In this document: positions 3,108-60,365 of the stretch, piece after piece
Numbering within the stretch: the stretch's first letter is position 1
Layout: every line of letters begins with the position of its first letter
Origin: Pseudomonadales bacterium
Lineage (GTDB): Bacteria; Pseudomonadota; Gammaproteobacteria; Pseudomonadales; JAHRWD01
Reading direction: 5' to 3'
DNA: 64,000 bases
Assembly: GCA_029210125.1 (NCBI GenBank)
Contig: JARGPR010000004.1
Location: 1-64,000 of the forward strand
Notes under the pieces: generated by a model
Told to the model about the DNA's origin: nothing
What the model saw: the letters and a program-made list of their open reading frames with translations, nothing else
Database searches by the model: none
Program-made: the position numbers and the translations under genes

Positions 3108-3713
3108 ATGAGCGTATTAGTAGGTCGTCCAGCACCAGACTTTACCGCAGCAGCTGTTTTGGGAACCGGTGAAATCGTTGATGATTTCAGTCTTTCTTCA
3201 ACCATTGCTGGCAAGCCAGCGGTAGTTTTCTTCTACCCTCTTGATTTCACCTTTGTGTGCCCTTCAGAGTTGATCGCATTTGATCACAGACTCGACGAGT
3301 TCAAAAAGCGTGGTGTTGAAGTGATTGGTGTTTCTATCGATTCACAATTCACACATAACGCCTGGAGAAATACTCCAGTTAACCAAGGTGGAATTGGCCC
3401 ATTGGGTTATCCATTGGTTGCTGACGTAACCCACAATATCTGCCGCGCATACGGCGTTGAGACTCCCGATGGTGCGGTTGCATTCCGTGGATCATTCCTG
3501 ATCGACAAAGCGGGCGACGTTCGTCACCAGGTTGTAAACGACCTGCCTTTGGGCCGTAACATCGATGAGATGATCCGTATGGTGGATGCACTTCAGTTCC
3601 ACGAAGAGCACGGTGAAGTTTGCCCAGCGGGTTGGCAGGAAGGAAAATCAGGTATGAAGGATACGCCAGACGGTGTGGCTGAGTATCTGGCAGGAAATGC
3701 TGACGCGCTGTAG
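3108..3713 (+). CDS. Typical 2-Cys peroxiredoxin (AhpC/Prx1 group)
   Basis: 201-residue thiol peroxidase that reduces H2O2 and organic peroxides. The peroxidatic Cys is C51 in FYPLDFTFVCPSE and the resolving Cys is C172 in HGEVCPAGW, so it is a typical 2-Cys enzyme. The sequence also has GGIGPLG, a loop seen in overoxidation-sensitive Prx1 proteins. A clear ribosome site (AGGGGAT, about 3096-3102) sits before ATG. It is a single-gene unit flanked by minus-strand genes and ends at a strong terminator. The electron donor is not encoded nearby. No OxyR site was recognised. Confidence 0.93.
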   Translation: MSVLVGRPAPDFTAAAVLGTGEIVDDFSLSSTIAGKPAVVFFYPLDFTFVCPSELIAFDHRLDEFKKRGVEVIGVSIDSQFTHNAWRNTPVNQGGIGPLGYPLVADVTHNICRAYGVETPDGAVAFRGSFLIDKAGDVRHQVVNDLPLGRNIDEMIRMVDALQFHEEHGEVCPAGWQEGKSGMKDTPDGVAEYLAGNADAL

Positions 3714-3895
3714 GAGACCATCCATGGGAGCTATTTTGCTCCCATGCTGCGTTGAAAACATGCTCAATCGGTCATTTACAATTTGTAAACTCCCTCTCTG
3801 TGCGTGTTTTCGCCTTGCCTGGAAGCAAAATCATCTCCCGTGCAAAGGCCTCAACTTCAGTCTTAATCTCGAGTGAAGTATCGTAGCGTTAGAAT

Positions 3896-3925
3896 AAGGA
3901 TAGGCTTCGGCCTATCCTTTTTTTT
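3896..3925 (+). terminator. Rho-independent terminator of the peroxiredoxin gene
   Basis: Perfect 10-bp stem AAGGATAGGC / GCCTATCCTT with a TTCG loop, followed by eight T residues. The T tract is on the plus strand, so it terminates the peroxiredoxin transcript. The stem contains the hisD stop codon (minus strand, 3912-3914), and hisD's last codons are read from the A/T tract, so the site is shared by two convergent genes. In the hisD direction no T tract follows. Confidence 0.9.
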
Positions 3926-5261
3926 GTCCAGCTTTTGCTGGTGTGTTATGTGCCGCGGCCCGCATTTCGGCAGAGCGAGCATGGCCTTCCAGCCCTTCAG
4001 CGCGCGCTAACAGTGAGGCAACTTCACCAAGTTCAGCGGCGGACTCGGGGCTGCATTCGATTAAAGAAGAGCGTTTCTGGAAATCATACACCCCCAGCGG
4101 TGATGAAAACCTGGCGGTACCGGAGGTGGGTAAAACGTGGTTGGGGCCAGCGCAATAATCCCCCAGTGCTTCACTGGTATAACGGCCGCAGAAGATGGCT
4201 CCGGCGTTGTTGATTTGATCCACCAGTGGCTGCGATTCTTCAACGGATAGCTCAAGGTGCTCTGGGGCAATGCGGTTGGCGACCTCAACAGCGGTGGCCA
4301 TATCGGGTACTTCAATAAAGATGCCACGCTTTTCAAGGGACGCGGCAATAACCTCGTGACGATCCATTGTGGGCAATAGGCGCTCAATCGAATTTTGCAC
4401 TTTTTCGATAAAACCGGCATCGGGGGTCATCAAAATCGACTGGGCATTTTCATCATGTTCAGCCTGGGAAAATAGGTCCATGGCGATCCAGTCTGGGTCG
4501 GTTTTACCGTCACAGATCACCAGAATTTCTGAAGGGCCGGCGATCATATCAATGCCGATCCGCCCAAACACAATACGTTTGGCGGCGGCAACGTAGATAT
4601 TGCCAGGGCCAACCAGTTTATCGACCGCCGGAATGGTTTCGGTGCCGTATGCGGCGCCGGCAACCGCCTGTGCGCCGCCGATGCCGTAGATTTGATCGAC
4701 ACCGGCAATATGAGCTGCGGCTAATACCACGTCGTTTAGCTGTCCATCGGGGGATGGGTTTAGCATTACGATTTCAGGTACGCCGGCAACTTTAGCGGGA
4801 ATGACATTCATCAATACTGTTGATGGGTAGGCGGCTTTGCCTCCGGGCACATATACGGCAACGCGGTTGAGTGGTCGTATCAGTTGGCCAAGTTTGGTGC
4901 CGCCCTGGTCGGTAAAGCTCCAGCTTTGCTGAACCTGATGTTGGTGAAAATCAGCAATACGTTGTGCGGCCCGTTTTAATGCCTGGAGCTGGTTGGGGTC
5001 GATACGATTGGCAGCTTCGGCCAGTTGTGCGGCATCAATTTTAAATTCAGCGGCGGATTTCAGATCACGGCGATCAAATTGATTGGTGTATTTTAGAACT
5101 GCTTGATCGCCATTAGTACGGACATCCCGAATGATTTGCTGAACCGTTTGCTCGACCTCAGGGTTGGCAATTGACTCCCAGCTCAGGGCCGTTTCGAGCT
5201 GCGAATAAAAGTCTGATGCCTGATAGTTCAGCCGGGAAACGGCTGGTTTCAAATTAGCCAT
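3912..5261 (-). CDS. hisD: Histidinol dehydrogenase HisD
   Basis: 449-residue enzyme for the last two steps of histidine synthesis, oxidising L-histidinol to L-histidine with two NAD+. Conserved stretches are [40 protein letters not shown], the catalytic IAPEHLEL and [12 protein letters not shown]. The zinc ligands and catalytic Glu-His are therefore present. It is slightly longer than the common 430-440 residues because of a tail ending GQKKG that runs through the convergent terminator. It follows hisG by 52 bases, and hisC is not next to it. Confidence 0.96.
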
Positions 5262-56062: not shown

Positions 56063-57274
56063 TCATGCCTCTGCCCCCCAGGATGGAAAAGGGTCTTGAA
56101 GTGTTTGCCATTTTTCCCGCCCTGCCAGCAGTTCATCATCGCTCAGCAGACAGTTATCTAATGCCTGAATAACCTGGTTTTTATGCGGCCCCTGGCCGAT
56201 GAAAACTAACTCCTGGCGCATATCGCCAAAGGGTTCCTGCCACTGAGCCTGAATGGATTGAAGATAATCTTCATCTTCTGGCCAGCGCTCCTGTGGTACC
56301 GCCTTCCAAAACATGCCGGCAAAACCATGGCGAGCCATACCACCAGCCTGGCTCCATTGCCCGGCAAATTCTGGCCGAGTAGCTAGCCAGAAGAATCCCT
56401 TGGAACGGATTAATTTACCTTGAATGTCACGGCTGTGGAGGAAGTCATAGAATTTTTGAGGGTGAAACGGTCGGCGGGCGGTATAGGTAAAACTGCCGAT
56501 ACCGTATTCCTCTGTCTCCGGTACGTGCTCGCCGCGCATCTCTTTCAACCAGCCGGGTGCATTCTGTGCACGCTCAAAACTGAATTTTCCGGTGCCCAGG
56601 ATTTGGCTTATGGGCACCTGACCGTGGCTGATCGGTACTATTTCTGCTTCCGTGTTCAGTGTTTTCAGGACGGCGACCAGGCGTTTCAGGGTGCTGTCAT
56701 CAACCAGATCGGTTTTGCTGATCAGGATAACGTCTGCAAACTCGACCTGATCAAACAGTAAATCGGCGACACTGCGATGATCCTCTTCCCCGAGGTGCTC
56801 GCCAGTTTCGTGTAAAAACTTGGCCTCGTCGTAATCGACCAGGAAGTTCAGTGCATCGACTACCGTCACCATGGTATCCAGATTGGCCACGTCAGACAGG
56901 CTGACGCCATCCTCATCAGCAAACGTAAATGTTTCTGCGACAGGCAGGGGCTCTGAGATACCGGTGGACTCAATTAACAGATAATCAAATCGATCCTCGT
57001 TGGCCAGGTGTCGTACTTCTAATAATAAGTCTTCCCGCAGCGTACAGCAGATACAACCATTGCTCATTTCGACCAGCTTCTCTTCGCTGCGGTTTAGCTG
57101 TACCTCTTGTCGCACGGCGCTGGCATCAATATTAATTTCACTCATGTCGTTGACGATCACCGCTACCCGGCGACCTTCACGATTATTGAGGACATGGCTC
57201 AATACCGTGGTTTTTCCGGTACCCAGGAAGCCGGAAAGTACGGTTACCGGGAGCTTATTGTCGGTGTTCAGCAT
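56063..57274 (-). CDS. zigA: COG0523 GTPase, zinc metallochaperone (ZigA-like)
   Basis: 403 residues from ATG 57274 ([23 protein letters not shown]). A GTG 13 codons upstream lies inside the palindrome and is less likely. G1 motif GFLGTGKTT at 15-23; the metal-binding CxCC motif is C74-I-C76-C77 (NGCICC); [14 protein letters not shown] and ISKTDL follow. The C-terminal CobW_C domain has [19 protein letters not shown]. ZigA-type proteins are induced by zinc limitation and deliver zinc to enzymes. The neighbouring palindrome and TonB-receptor remnant fit a Zur-type zinc locus, but Zur control is inferred. Confidence 0.85.
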
Positions 57275-57311
57275 GATGTTTTGATCCTCAGTTATTTTTG
57301 GTGTAACACGC

Positions 57312-57356
57312 ACACAAGCCTAGTTATGATATAACATATCATAACTAGGCTTGTGT
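57312..57356. promoter_or_regulatory. Perfect 45-bp palindrome between zigA and the TonB-receptor pseudogene
   Basis: Two 21-base arms (57312-57332 and 57336-57356) are exact reverse complements around a 3-base AAC centre. The core GATATAACATATC and the flanking GTTAT/ATAAC pairs resemble the AT-rich dyads of zinc-uptake regulator (Zur) sites, but the match to the published Zur consensus is partial. It begins 38 bases upstream of the zigA start, so it could control both divergent genes. As RNA it would fold into a long hairpin. Confidence 0.8.
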
Positions 57357-57435
57357 CTGCGAGAAATAGTTTTATATGTGGAGAAAAAATTGAAGTGCAA
57401 ATTTTGGTATAAAGCCCCCCTTTTTTGGTGTAGGT

Positions 57436-58197
57436 ATGAGCTTAACTTCTGTTCAGGGCCATGCGGCATCTGATGAGAGCGAAACAGGTGCAATTGGGCT
57501 TGAAAGCATGCTTGTAACGGGGGCTCGGCAAGCATATCGCGGGGATTTTCACCCCTTGGATATCCTTCAGGCTCAGCTAGTCATTGATGCTGAAGCGGTA
57601 AACCTTGATCAGGCACTAGACCTCTCAACGTCGGTTGCCCGTCAAAATAACTTTGGCGGCCTATAGAACAGTTTTGCGGTACGGGGTTTTGTCGGTGATG
57701 AAAATCTACCCAGCAACCACTTAGTTAATGGTTCCAATGCCGGTCGAGGTTTTGGTGGCCCTCGGGATCTGTCGGGTATTGAATCGGTGGAGGTATTAAA
57801 AGGCCCCCGTGCTGCCTTGTTCGGTCGCGGGGAACCTGGTGGCACAATCAACCTGGTTACCAAACGCCCGACTTTTGAATCGGCGGGAGAGCTGCGTGTT
57901 TCTGCGGGTAGTTTTGATACGTACCGTACCGATGTGGACTGGACGACCCCTATCTCCGATGCGATTGCCATTCGGCTGGTTGGTTTCTATGAGGATGCAA
58001 ACAGTTTTAGGGATACCGTTGAAACACGCAAGCAGGGTGTTAGCCCTTCACTTGTATGGCTCATGAGTGAGCAGAGTCAGATGGTTTATGAGCTTGAATA
58101 CAGTTATCAGGAACTTCCCTTTGATCGCGGAGTGGGTGCAATCGATGGTCAGTTGGGCCGTATTCCTGAAGGTCGCTTCCTTGGTGAGCCTAGTTGA
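57436..58197 (+). pseudogene. TonB-dependent receptor, decayed N-terminal fragment
   Basis: Plug-domain remnant. The first part (57436-57663) contains LVIDAEAVNLDQALDLSTSVARQNNFGGL, then TAG at 57664-57666 in frame. The same frame continues NSFAVRGF, GGPRDLSGIESVEVLKGPRAALFGRGEPGGTINLVTKRP to TGA at 58195-58197. The barrel (about 450 residues) is missing. Relatives usually have W-D-N/W-N before F-AVRGF, so TAG is probably a TGG mutation. Upstream, removing one base from the C6T6 tract (57415-57426) would join a signal-peptide-like MEKKLKCKFWYKAPLF to GVGMSLTSVQGHA, suggesting a frameshift too. Confidence 0.85.
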
Positions 58198-58236
58198 TGA
58201 GCCGATGGCGGCGATATTTGTTTAGGCTAAAAATAA

Positions 58237-58258
58237 ATACCGCCACATTTGGCGGTAT
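58237..58258. repeat. Small hairpin after the TonB-receptor remnant
   Basis: ATACCGCC / GGCGGTAT around ACATTT, about 40 bases after the pseudogene stop. No T tract. The 160 bases between the pseudogene stop and the tRNA hold nothing else that I recognise. Confidence 0.5.
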
Positions 58259-58357
58259 ATCTGTGCATAGTAATGGGTGCCTGTGGACAAAGGGCAAGGC
58301 TTCACCCTTTATGGTTCGGGGCTTCCGGACATTAGCGGGTATTTATGGAGGGGCATT

Positions 58358-58434
58358 TGGTGGGCCTACTTGGACTCGAACCAAGGACCAATGGATTATG
58401 AGTCCACTGCTCTAACCAACTGAGCTATAGGCCC
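58358..58434 (-). tRNA. ileX: tRNA-Ile2 (CAU anticodon)
   Basis: 77 bases with the 3' CCA encoded. Acceptor stem GGGCCTA/TAGGCCC, D arm GCTC...GAGC, anticodon arm GTGGA-CTCATAA-TCCAT giving anticodon CAU, and T arm CTTGG-TTCGAGT-CCAAG. CAU is shared by Met, fMet and Ile2 tRNAs. The acceptor stem and body resemble Pseudomonas-type Ile2 tRNAs (lysidine-modified) rather than elongator Met. E. coli ileX also lies near rpoD, which supports the Ile2 assignment. tRNA-Met is the alternative. Confidence 0.87.
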
Positions 58435-58449
58435 CGAAAAGGGGTTTTG

Positions 58450-58455
58450 ATTATA
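58450..58455 (-). promoter_or_regulatory. -10 box of the tRNA promoter
   Basis: On the minus strand TATAAT lies about 16 bases upstream of the mature tRNA 5' end, followed by CAAAACCCC. The -35 at normal spacing is weak (TGGCAT). A short CCCC/GGGG pairing occurs in the leader. Confidence 0.6.
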
Positions 58456-58565
58456 CTGAGAGCCTTGCGTGAATGCCATTGGGAAACATACAAATATTCA
58501 GTACGCTTTTTACCGTTCAGCGGCCTGAAAGCATAGCGGCTAACAGGCTAGCGAAGGTTTTCTGG

Positions 58566-60365
58566 TTACTCGTCAAGAAAGCTTTTGAGGTTTTCTGAGC
58601 GCGAAGGGTGACGCAGTTTTCTAAGCGCTTTTGCTTCAATTTGACGGATACGTTCACGGGTTACGTCAAACTGTTTGCCCACCTCTTCAAGCGTATGATC
58701 GGTGTTCATGTCGATACCGAATCGCATCCTTAGAACCTTGGCCTCTCTCGCCGTCAGCCCGGACAATACGTTAAGAGTCGCTTCTTTCAGGCCTTCAACG
58801 GTAGCGGAATCAACCGGCGAATCAATGTTCACATCTTCGATAAAATCGCCGAGGTGTGAATCTTCATCATCTCCAATTGGGGTTTCCATGGAAATGGGCT
58901 CTTTGGCGATTTTAAGTACTTTTCTGATTTTATCTTCAGGGATTTCCATCCGCTCACTCAATTCTTCGGGGGTAGGTTCGCGGCCCACTTCCTGAAGCAT
59001 TTGCCGGGAGATACGGTTGAGTTTATTGATGGTCTCAATCATATGTACCGGGATACGAATAGTACGGGCTTGATCCGCAATAGAGCGCGTAATAGCCTGG
59101 CGAATCCACCAGGTTGCGTAGGTTGAAAACTTGTAGCCACGACGGTATTCAAATTTGTCGACCGCTTTCATCAGTCCGATGTTGCCTTCCTGAATCAGGT
59201 CCAGGAATTGCAGGCCTCGGTTGGTATATTTTTTGGCGATCGAGATGACCAGGCGAAGGTTTGCCTCGACCATCTCTTTTTTGGCGTAGCGTGAACGTGC
59301 ATCGCCCAGCGCTAATTTGCGTGCAATCTCTTTAATTTCGCCAACACTTATGGAGTGATTTTCTTCCAGCAGCTGAAGCTTGCTCTGCACGCGCTGGATA
59401 TCATCCTTGCATTTGGCCATTCCAGCGGAATAGTCGGCATTTTTTTCGATTTGAGTATCGACAAAAGTGGCGTTTGCTTCGTTGCCAGTGAATGCGCGAA
59501 TAAATTCACGCCGGGGCATACCCGCAGAGCGAACACAGATATTCATAATATTGCGTTCGTGTTCTCGAACCCGGTTAGATACTGAGCGAAATCGATCTAC
59601 AACCGGATCGAAGCGGCGCGGGATCAACTTTAGGTATTTAAACATGTCGGCAAGCTTTTCATATTCCGCGACTGTTTTAGGGTCGCTTCGACCTAGCTTT
59701 TCAACGGATTTAGCTGTTTTGTTGTACTGTTTTTTGATCGCGGAAAAACGTTTTTCTGCTTCAATGGGATCTGGTCCCGTATCTTTTTCCTCCTCGTCTT
59801 CATCCTTTGCCTGTCCGGCAGTTTTTTGAGCTGCAGAGGGGACGTGCTCGACGGGGTTCAGGTAGCCGCTGATAATTTCATCAAGCCGGCGTTCACCCTG
59901 CTTGTAGTTATCGTATTCATCCAGAATGATCGAAACAGTGCCGGGGAAAAACGCCAGGGCCGCCAATTGCTCACGAATACCTTCTTCGATGCGCTTGGCA
60001 ATCTTGATTTCGCCTTCTCTGGTTAGCAGTTCAACCGTGCCCATTTCTCGCATATACATGCGAACGGGGTCGGTGGTGCGGCCGATGTCTGTTTCTACGG
60101 CTGCCAGTGCTGCGGTGGCTTCAGCGACTGCAATTTCGTCGGTGGAGTCGCTGCCGGTCATGATCATGCTGTCGGAGTCTGGAGCCGCTTCGCTGACTTT
60201 GATGCCCAGGTCATTGATCATCTGAATAATATCTTCGACCTGGTCGGGATCAGAGATATTTTCGGGTAAGTGGTCGTTGACTTCGGCGTAGGTCAGATAG
60301 CCTTGCTCACGCCCGCGAGCGATGAGTACTTTTAATCGTGACTGTTGTGAAGCGGTAGAGGACAT
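58566..60365 (-). CDS. rpoD: RNA polymerase primary sigma factor RpoD (sigma-70)
   Basis: 599 residues. Region 1.1 is the N-terminal [25 protein letters not shown]. Region 1.2 has [22 protein letters not shown]. Region 2 has [27 protein letters not shown] and the -10 recognition [20 protein letters not shown]. Region 3 follows, then region 4 HTH with [39 protein letters not shown]. An acidic nonconserved insert ([20 protein letters not shown]) is between regions 1.2 and 2. dnaG is not upstream in this window. Confidence 0.98.

Follow-up and report, generated by a model that had tools for sequence, protein, structure and literature searches.

Among the described systems, the closest to the site reported here is the gammaproteobacterial Zur box of the E. 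coli znuABC operator. An 18-bp motif for two Zur dimers, RNNNYRNNRYNNYRNNNY, in which the dyads overlap, was derived from the structure of E. coli Zur with znuABC (PMC4219657). The correction of quasipalindromes by template switching is the second described system with which our results can be compared. By this process, imperfect inverted repeats are converted to perfect ones in one event, and selection is not needed. Template switching perfects imperfect palindromes in E. coli (PMC7202029) and can also create hairpins in evolution (PMC8794818). It is known from mutational hotspots and RNA genes, whereas the case presented here is a probable transcription-factor operator. Our literature search found no paper on template switching at transcription-factor operators, and the search for papers linking Zur boxes to long palindromes or stem-loops found only an unrelated L31 case.

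Similar to the znuABC operator, the site investigated in this study possesses the 18-bp two-dimer motif with overlapping dyads and precedes a gene of a family that is often under Zur control. Different from the znuABC operator, however, its core contains an additional mirrored half-site and is perfectly palindromic over 23 bp, and 11 more perfectly complementary base pairs are added to it on each side. The features of this site and of its flanking genes are listed in Table 1, in which the positions are those of the window, i.e., the whole stretch of 64,000 nucleotides analyzed.

Table 1. Positions of the palindrome, its predicted Zur-binding elements and the flanking genes in the window.
Feature	Position	Strand	Remark
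45-bp palindrome	57312..57356	none	21-bp arms (57312-57332 and 57336-57356); centre AAC (GTT on the zigA strand)
Core GTTATGATATAACATATCATAAC, 23 bp	57323..57345	none	Predicted Zur operator; three RNNNYxxxRNNNY dyads, 5 bp apart
Two-dimer Zur motif GATATGTTATATCATAAC, 18 bp	57323..57340	minus	Identical at L022 (77%-identical ZigA)
Central Zur box GATATGTTATATC, 13 bp	57328..57340	minus	Box identical in L051 and L081
Second, overlapping box GTTATGATATAAC	57323..57335	plus	Matches the 13-bp pattern GTTATNNTATAAC exactly
Outer arm ACACAAGCCTA	57312..57322	none	Not Zur-like; not conserved in the nearest orthologue (L232)
Outer arm TAGGCTTGTGT	57346..57356	none	Exact reverse complement of outer arm ACACAAGCCTA
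zigA, zinc metallochaperone GTPase (COG0523)	56063..57274	minus	Probable target gene; profile match
TonB-dependent siderophore-receptor remnant	57436..58197	plus	In-frame TAG at 57664-57666; 3' end missing

The palindrome and its flanking genes

The initial annotation described a perfect palindrome of 45 bp with 21-base arms between divergent zigA and a TonB-receptor remnant, and every detail of this description was correct. The two arms are 100% complementary and are separated by three nucleotides. The runner-up among the perfect close inverted repeats of the 64 kb has arms of merely 14 nt, and shuffles of the window yielded zero matches to the 45-bp palindrome (expected 0.00). The palindrome precedes the probable zigA start codon (ATG at 57274, minus strand) by 37 bp, and no T-run was found on either side of it. 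Many copies at unrelated intergenic sites, which would mark a repeat family, were not found. Instead, the palindrome is single-copy in the 3.13-Mb genome (99.8% complete) and is thus not a dispersed repeat family. It was also absent from the plasmid records searched.

The assignment of zigA was based on NCBIfam NF038288 (E 3e-209, 694.7 bits vs. a cut-off of 600). The divergent receptor remnant has neither a barrel end nor a recognisable signal peptide. A homologous remnant was found at the corresponding place in L232, which is the nearest syntenic orthologue, and the receptor gene therefore either died before the lineages of the window and L232 split or decayed in both. In addition, L232, whose ZigA is the closest found (88% identical), comes from a genome placed in another order (G065), yet its gene order of rpoD, tRNA-Met(cat), receptor remnant and zigA matches that of positions 57275-60365 of the window. 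This agreement would reflect either a transfer of the segment or a grouping that is deep at this point.

The initial annotation suggested a Zur-type or related site from the location between a zinc GTPase and an uptake receptor. As the receptor gene is dead in the window, its regulation by zinc alongside zigA is unproven, and the receptor as a conserved second Zur target was rejected because only remnants are found in both the window and L232. In Pseudoalteromonas, an intact TonB receptor with a 722-codon frame is divergent from zigA (L082, at about 3700-4000, upstream of zigA). A Fur-like inverted repeat, AAATGATAACTCTTATCATTT, is near the start of this receptor gene and a Zur-type box is near zigA, so that the two genes are possibly a divergent Fur/Zur pair. 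Given that the intact receptor has its own Fur-like repeat, a Fur link for the TonB receptor is as likely as a Zur link.

The Zur-type core and its conservation

On the zigA strand, the box of the window reads GATATGTTATATC and is followed by ATAAC. The 18-bp sequence GATATGTTATATCATAAC matches the two-dimer motif letter class by letter class. Since the core is palindromic, its mirror 18-mer also fits this motif, which gives three dyads 5 bp apart, an arrangement that the initial annotation described as possibly two overlapping dyads. The same 5-bp offset is directly visible at L145 (G174:C1:92299-92320), where two perfect 17-bp Zur-type boxes on opposite strands overlap by 12 bp.

The zigA upstream regions compared in this study were taken from 80 named genomes, from the order of the window, from the genus of one Marinomonas genome, from the family of one Halopseudomonas genome and from a class-wide set. 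A full box was defined as the 13-bp dyad G(T/A)TA(T/C)NNN(A/G)TA(T/A)C, and its distance to the start codon was mostly 20-140 bp. At the order level, a full box preceded zigA in each of the 13 orthologues for which upstream sequence was available, as it did at nearly all zigA loci of Marinomonas. Overall, a full box was found in about half of the zigA upstream regions (120 of 262), and in many Pseudomonadaceae the 300 bp upstream of zigA contained no full box.

The genome of the window contains two FUR-family genes, which encode Fur (L131) and a Zur-like protein (L132; C8:312042-312407). The best solved matches of the latter are 7dh7 and E. coli Zur (4mtd). The NCBIfam Zur model was its best model, with a score below the cut-off, and the protein is divergent from E. 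coli Zur. Of the residue pair for cooperativity in E. coli Zur, Asp49 is kept in the alignment and Arg52 is replaced by Lys. The zur-like gene is located directly behind zrgA, which is itself preceded by a box, GTTATGTTGTAAC. The expectation of further sites upstream of zinc genes is thus borne out at the zrgA-zur cluster but not at znuA, upstream of which no obvious Zur box was found in this genome. The zigA gene of the window is apart from the zrgA-zur cluster. The cluster order is zigA, an unnamed gene and zur in L051, and zigA, an unnamed gene and a zrgA-like gene in L232.

The boxes of the orthologues, the fit to the two-dimer motif and the zrgA-zur cluster with its own box all support the initial suggestion of a Zur-type site with overlapping dyads. 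Judged from these sequence comparisons, the 23-bp core is very likely the Zur operator of zigA, and zinc-dependent repression of zigA by Zur at the core would be its best-supported function.

Recurrence of the long arms

Conservation at orthologous zigA loci, by which the initial annotation proposed to judge the palindrome, was found for the core but not for the long palindrome. L232 has the same gene order as the window and carries the core as GATATGTTATAACATATC, without the outer 11-bp arms. Thus, the core is conserved and the 45-bp form is lineage-specific. Homology between the left flanks of the window and L232 extends to the start of the palindrome, and neither outer arm of the window clearly resembles L232.

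Perfect arms were also identified at the Zur boxes of other zigA genes. They were 21 bp long at L195, 19 bp at L080, 18 bp at L179 and L183, 17 bp at L066 and 16 bp at L194, and their letters were unrelated. Arms of 14 bp, also perfect, were found at the zigA Zur boxes of L174, L126, L023 and L271. The longest-armed loci are from Marinomonas (L195, L080, L179, and L183) and Algicola (L066). These operators share the type of box and the length of arms (17-21 bp) with that of the window, but their arm sequences are unrelated to it and their cores are GTTATGTTATAAC, GTTATATCATAAC or similar, compared to GATATGTTATATC in the window.

This recurrence exceeded chance. When the 23-bp core was kept and the flanks were exchanged within groups, at most 3 loci with arms of at least 14 bp were obtained in 1000 shuffles, compared to 10 of the 113 non-redundant loci observed. 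In an earlier test of 50 loci, 5 were observed vs. at most 2 in 2000 shuffles. As to the background, about 700 kb of flanking DNA contained just 3 other palindromes with arms of at least 14 bp and a loop of at most 4, and two of these three were terminator-like.

Within Marinomonas, the left flank is common to the carriers of the palindrome and to their relatives without it. On the right side, L172, L178 and L179 have about 5 extra bases that complement the left flank, in comparison with L176 and L180. This pattern is what would be expected from one-sided copying, for which it is suggestive.

Another Zur-type box, GAATTATTGTTATAGTATAACAATAATTC, with 14-bp perfect arms was found at L170 of Marinomonas communis. 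The gene just downstream of it may be a metal transporter. Because of this box, the long-arm effect is not confined to zigA.

Leader RNA, DNA element or mobile sequence

The initial annotation suggested that the full length of the palindrome may be maintained for a structural role. One form of such a role would be a hairpin in the leader mRNA of zigA that is under selection, controls stability or translation, contains the Zur box only incidentally and is kept paired by compensating changes. The predicted fold of the window palindrome is indeed highly stable, with a z of -7 and of about -8 in the flank-shuffle control. Moreover, Marinomonas L172, L178, and L199 have stems of 18-20 bp whose sole exceptions are G-T (G-U) pairs on the mRNA-sense strand, which is a weak G-U bias, and a compensated C-G to T-A change distinguishes L178 from L179. 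In two Pseudomonadaceae, L290 (G485) and L291 (G448), stems of about 16-25 bp surround the Zur box, the right arm contains the Shine-Dalgarno sequence of zigA, and both arms differ between the two loci with the pairing kept. The G-U-only exceptions and the Shine-Dalgarno stems keep an mRNA hairpin alive in single lineages.

Across lineages, however, the results oppose it. With the core fixed and the flanks shuffled, the folding excess over the 113 loci was equal on both strands (sense mean z of -0.90, antisense mean z of -0.91, paired p = 0.66). Both in Marinomonas and, separately, in Pseudomonadaceae, a -35-like signal (z about 3) precedes the right half of the box by 16-17 bp. With this spacing, the -10 element is probably provided by the right half of the box, and the left arm would then not be transcribed. 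For zigA of the window, no convincing promoter was found. In addition, the nearest orthologue, L232, is without the hairpin arms, and no Rfam family was identified: the only Rfam hits were sub-threshold animal miRNA hairpins, and a known structured RNA was rejected. Given the strand-equal folding excess and the predicted -10 element inside the box, a conserved mRNA hairpin is unlikely. The early support for a leader-RNA hairpin, which came from the raw energy difference between sense and antisense and from the G-U exceptions in Marinomonas, was lost under the core-keeping flank shuffle and with the position of the promoter.

That the full 45 bp are a functional DNA element, either as an extended operator for more Zur dimers or as a cruciform that tunes the promoter, agrees with the strand symmetry of the arms, their recurrence at one kind of site and their perfection in several lineages, and the three overlapping dyads of the core would permit alternative dimer registers. 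Most Zur boxes of zigA, however, are without long arms, and the letters of the outer arms have nothing in common between lineages. As these letters differ, sequence-specific protein contact does not explain the outer arms, and we regard a functional role of the full length as quite improbable.

Finally, the length and perfection of the palindrome are typical of mobile-element ends, terminators and dispersed repeats, but an element of this sort that has no link to zinc is very improbable, given the single genomic copy, the lack of a plasmid match and of a flanking T-run, the location between divergent genes and the conserved Zur-type box at its core. An intrinsic terminator was rejected on the missing T-run and the divergent genes, and a REP- or MITE-type dispersed repeat on the copy number.

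Proposed function and origin

On balance, the palindrome is probably best explained by a core that is the Zur operator of zigA and by arms that arose from recurrent growth through template switching. If the operator is granted, the template-switch origin of the arms is fairly probable. We favor template switching because it accounts for perfect arms of unrelated sequence at one kind of site.

Under this explanation, Zur loaded with zinc would occupy the zigA promoter and keep it off. It would probably bind the overlapping dyads as two dimers that cooperate, for which two mirror-image registers are possible on the core. When zinc is exhausted, Zur would leave and zigA would be transcribed. The arms outside of the 23-bp core would have no part in the recognition site. 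They probably formed when a stalled replication polymerase copied one flank of the dyad into the other, by which a short operator dyad would become a long perfect palindrome. Such growth would have occurred independently in several lineages and with different letters each time.

Overall, the locus is very probably, as far as its sequence can tell, a Zur operator, which is a known kind of site. Its palindrome is unusually long and perfect, and this form evolved repeatedly. Its function would be ordinary, and its form is mildly surprising. A broader and doubtful idea is that Zur operators are a natural hotspot at which protein-bound dyads repeatedly grow into long perfect palindromes, and that some lineages co-opt these palindromes as a second layer of control. 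In L290 and L291, such control might come from a hairpin that covers the zigA ribosome-binding site; elsewhere, the operator might be extended to load several dimers.

Our results point to the site from which a gene for zinc starvation is likely regulated in a so far uncharacterised gammaproteobacterium. Moreover, the set of orthologous operators, with its recurrent perfect palindromes of differing letters, would be a testable case for how the length and symmetry of operators change, and the question it raises is whether block copying, rather than point mutation, is the route of this change.
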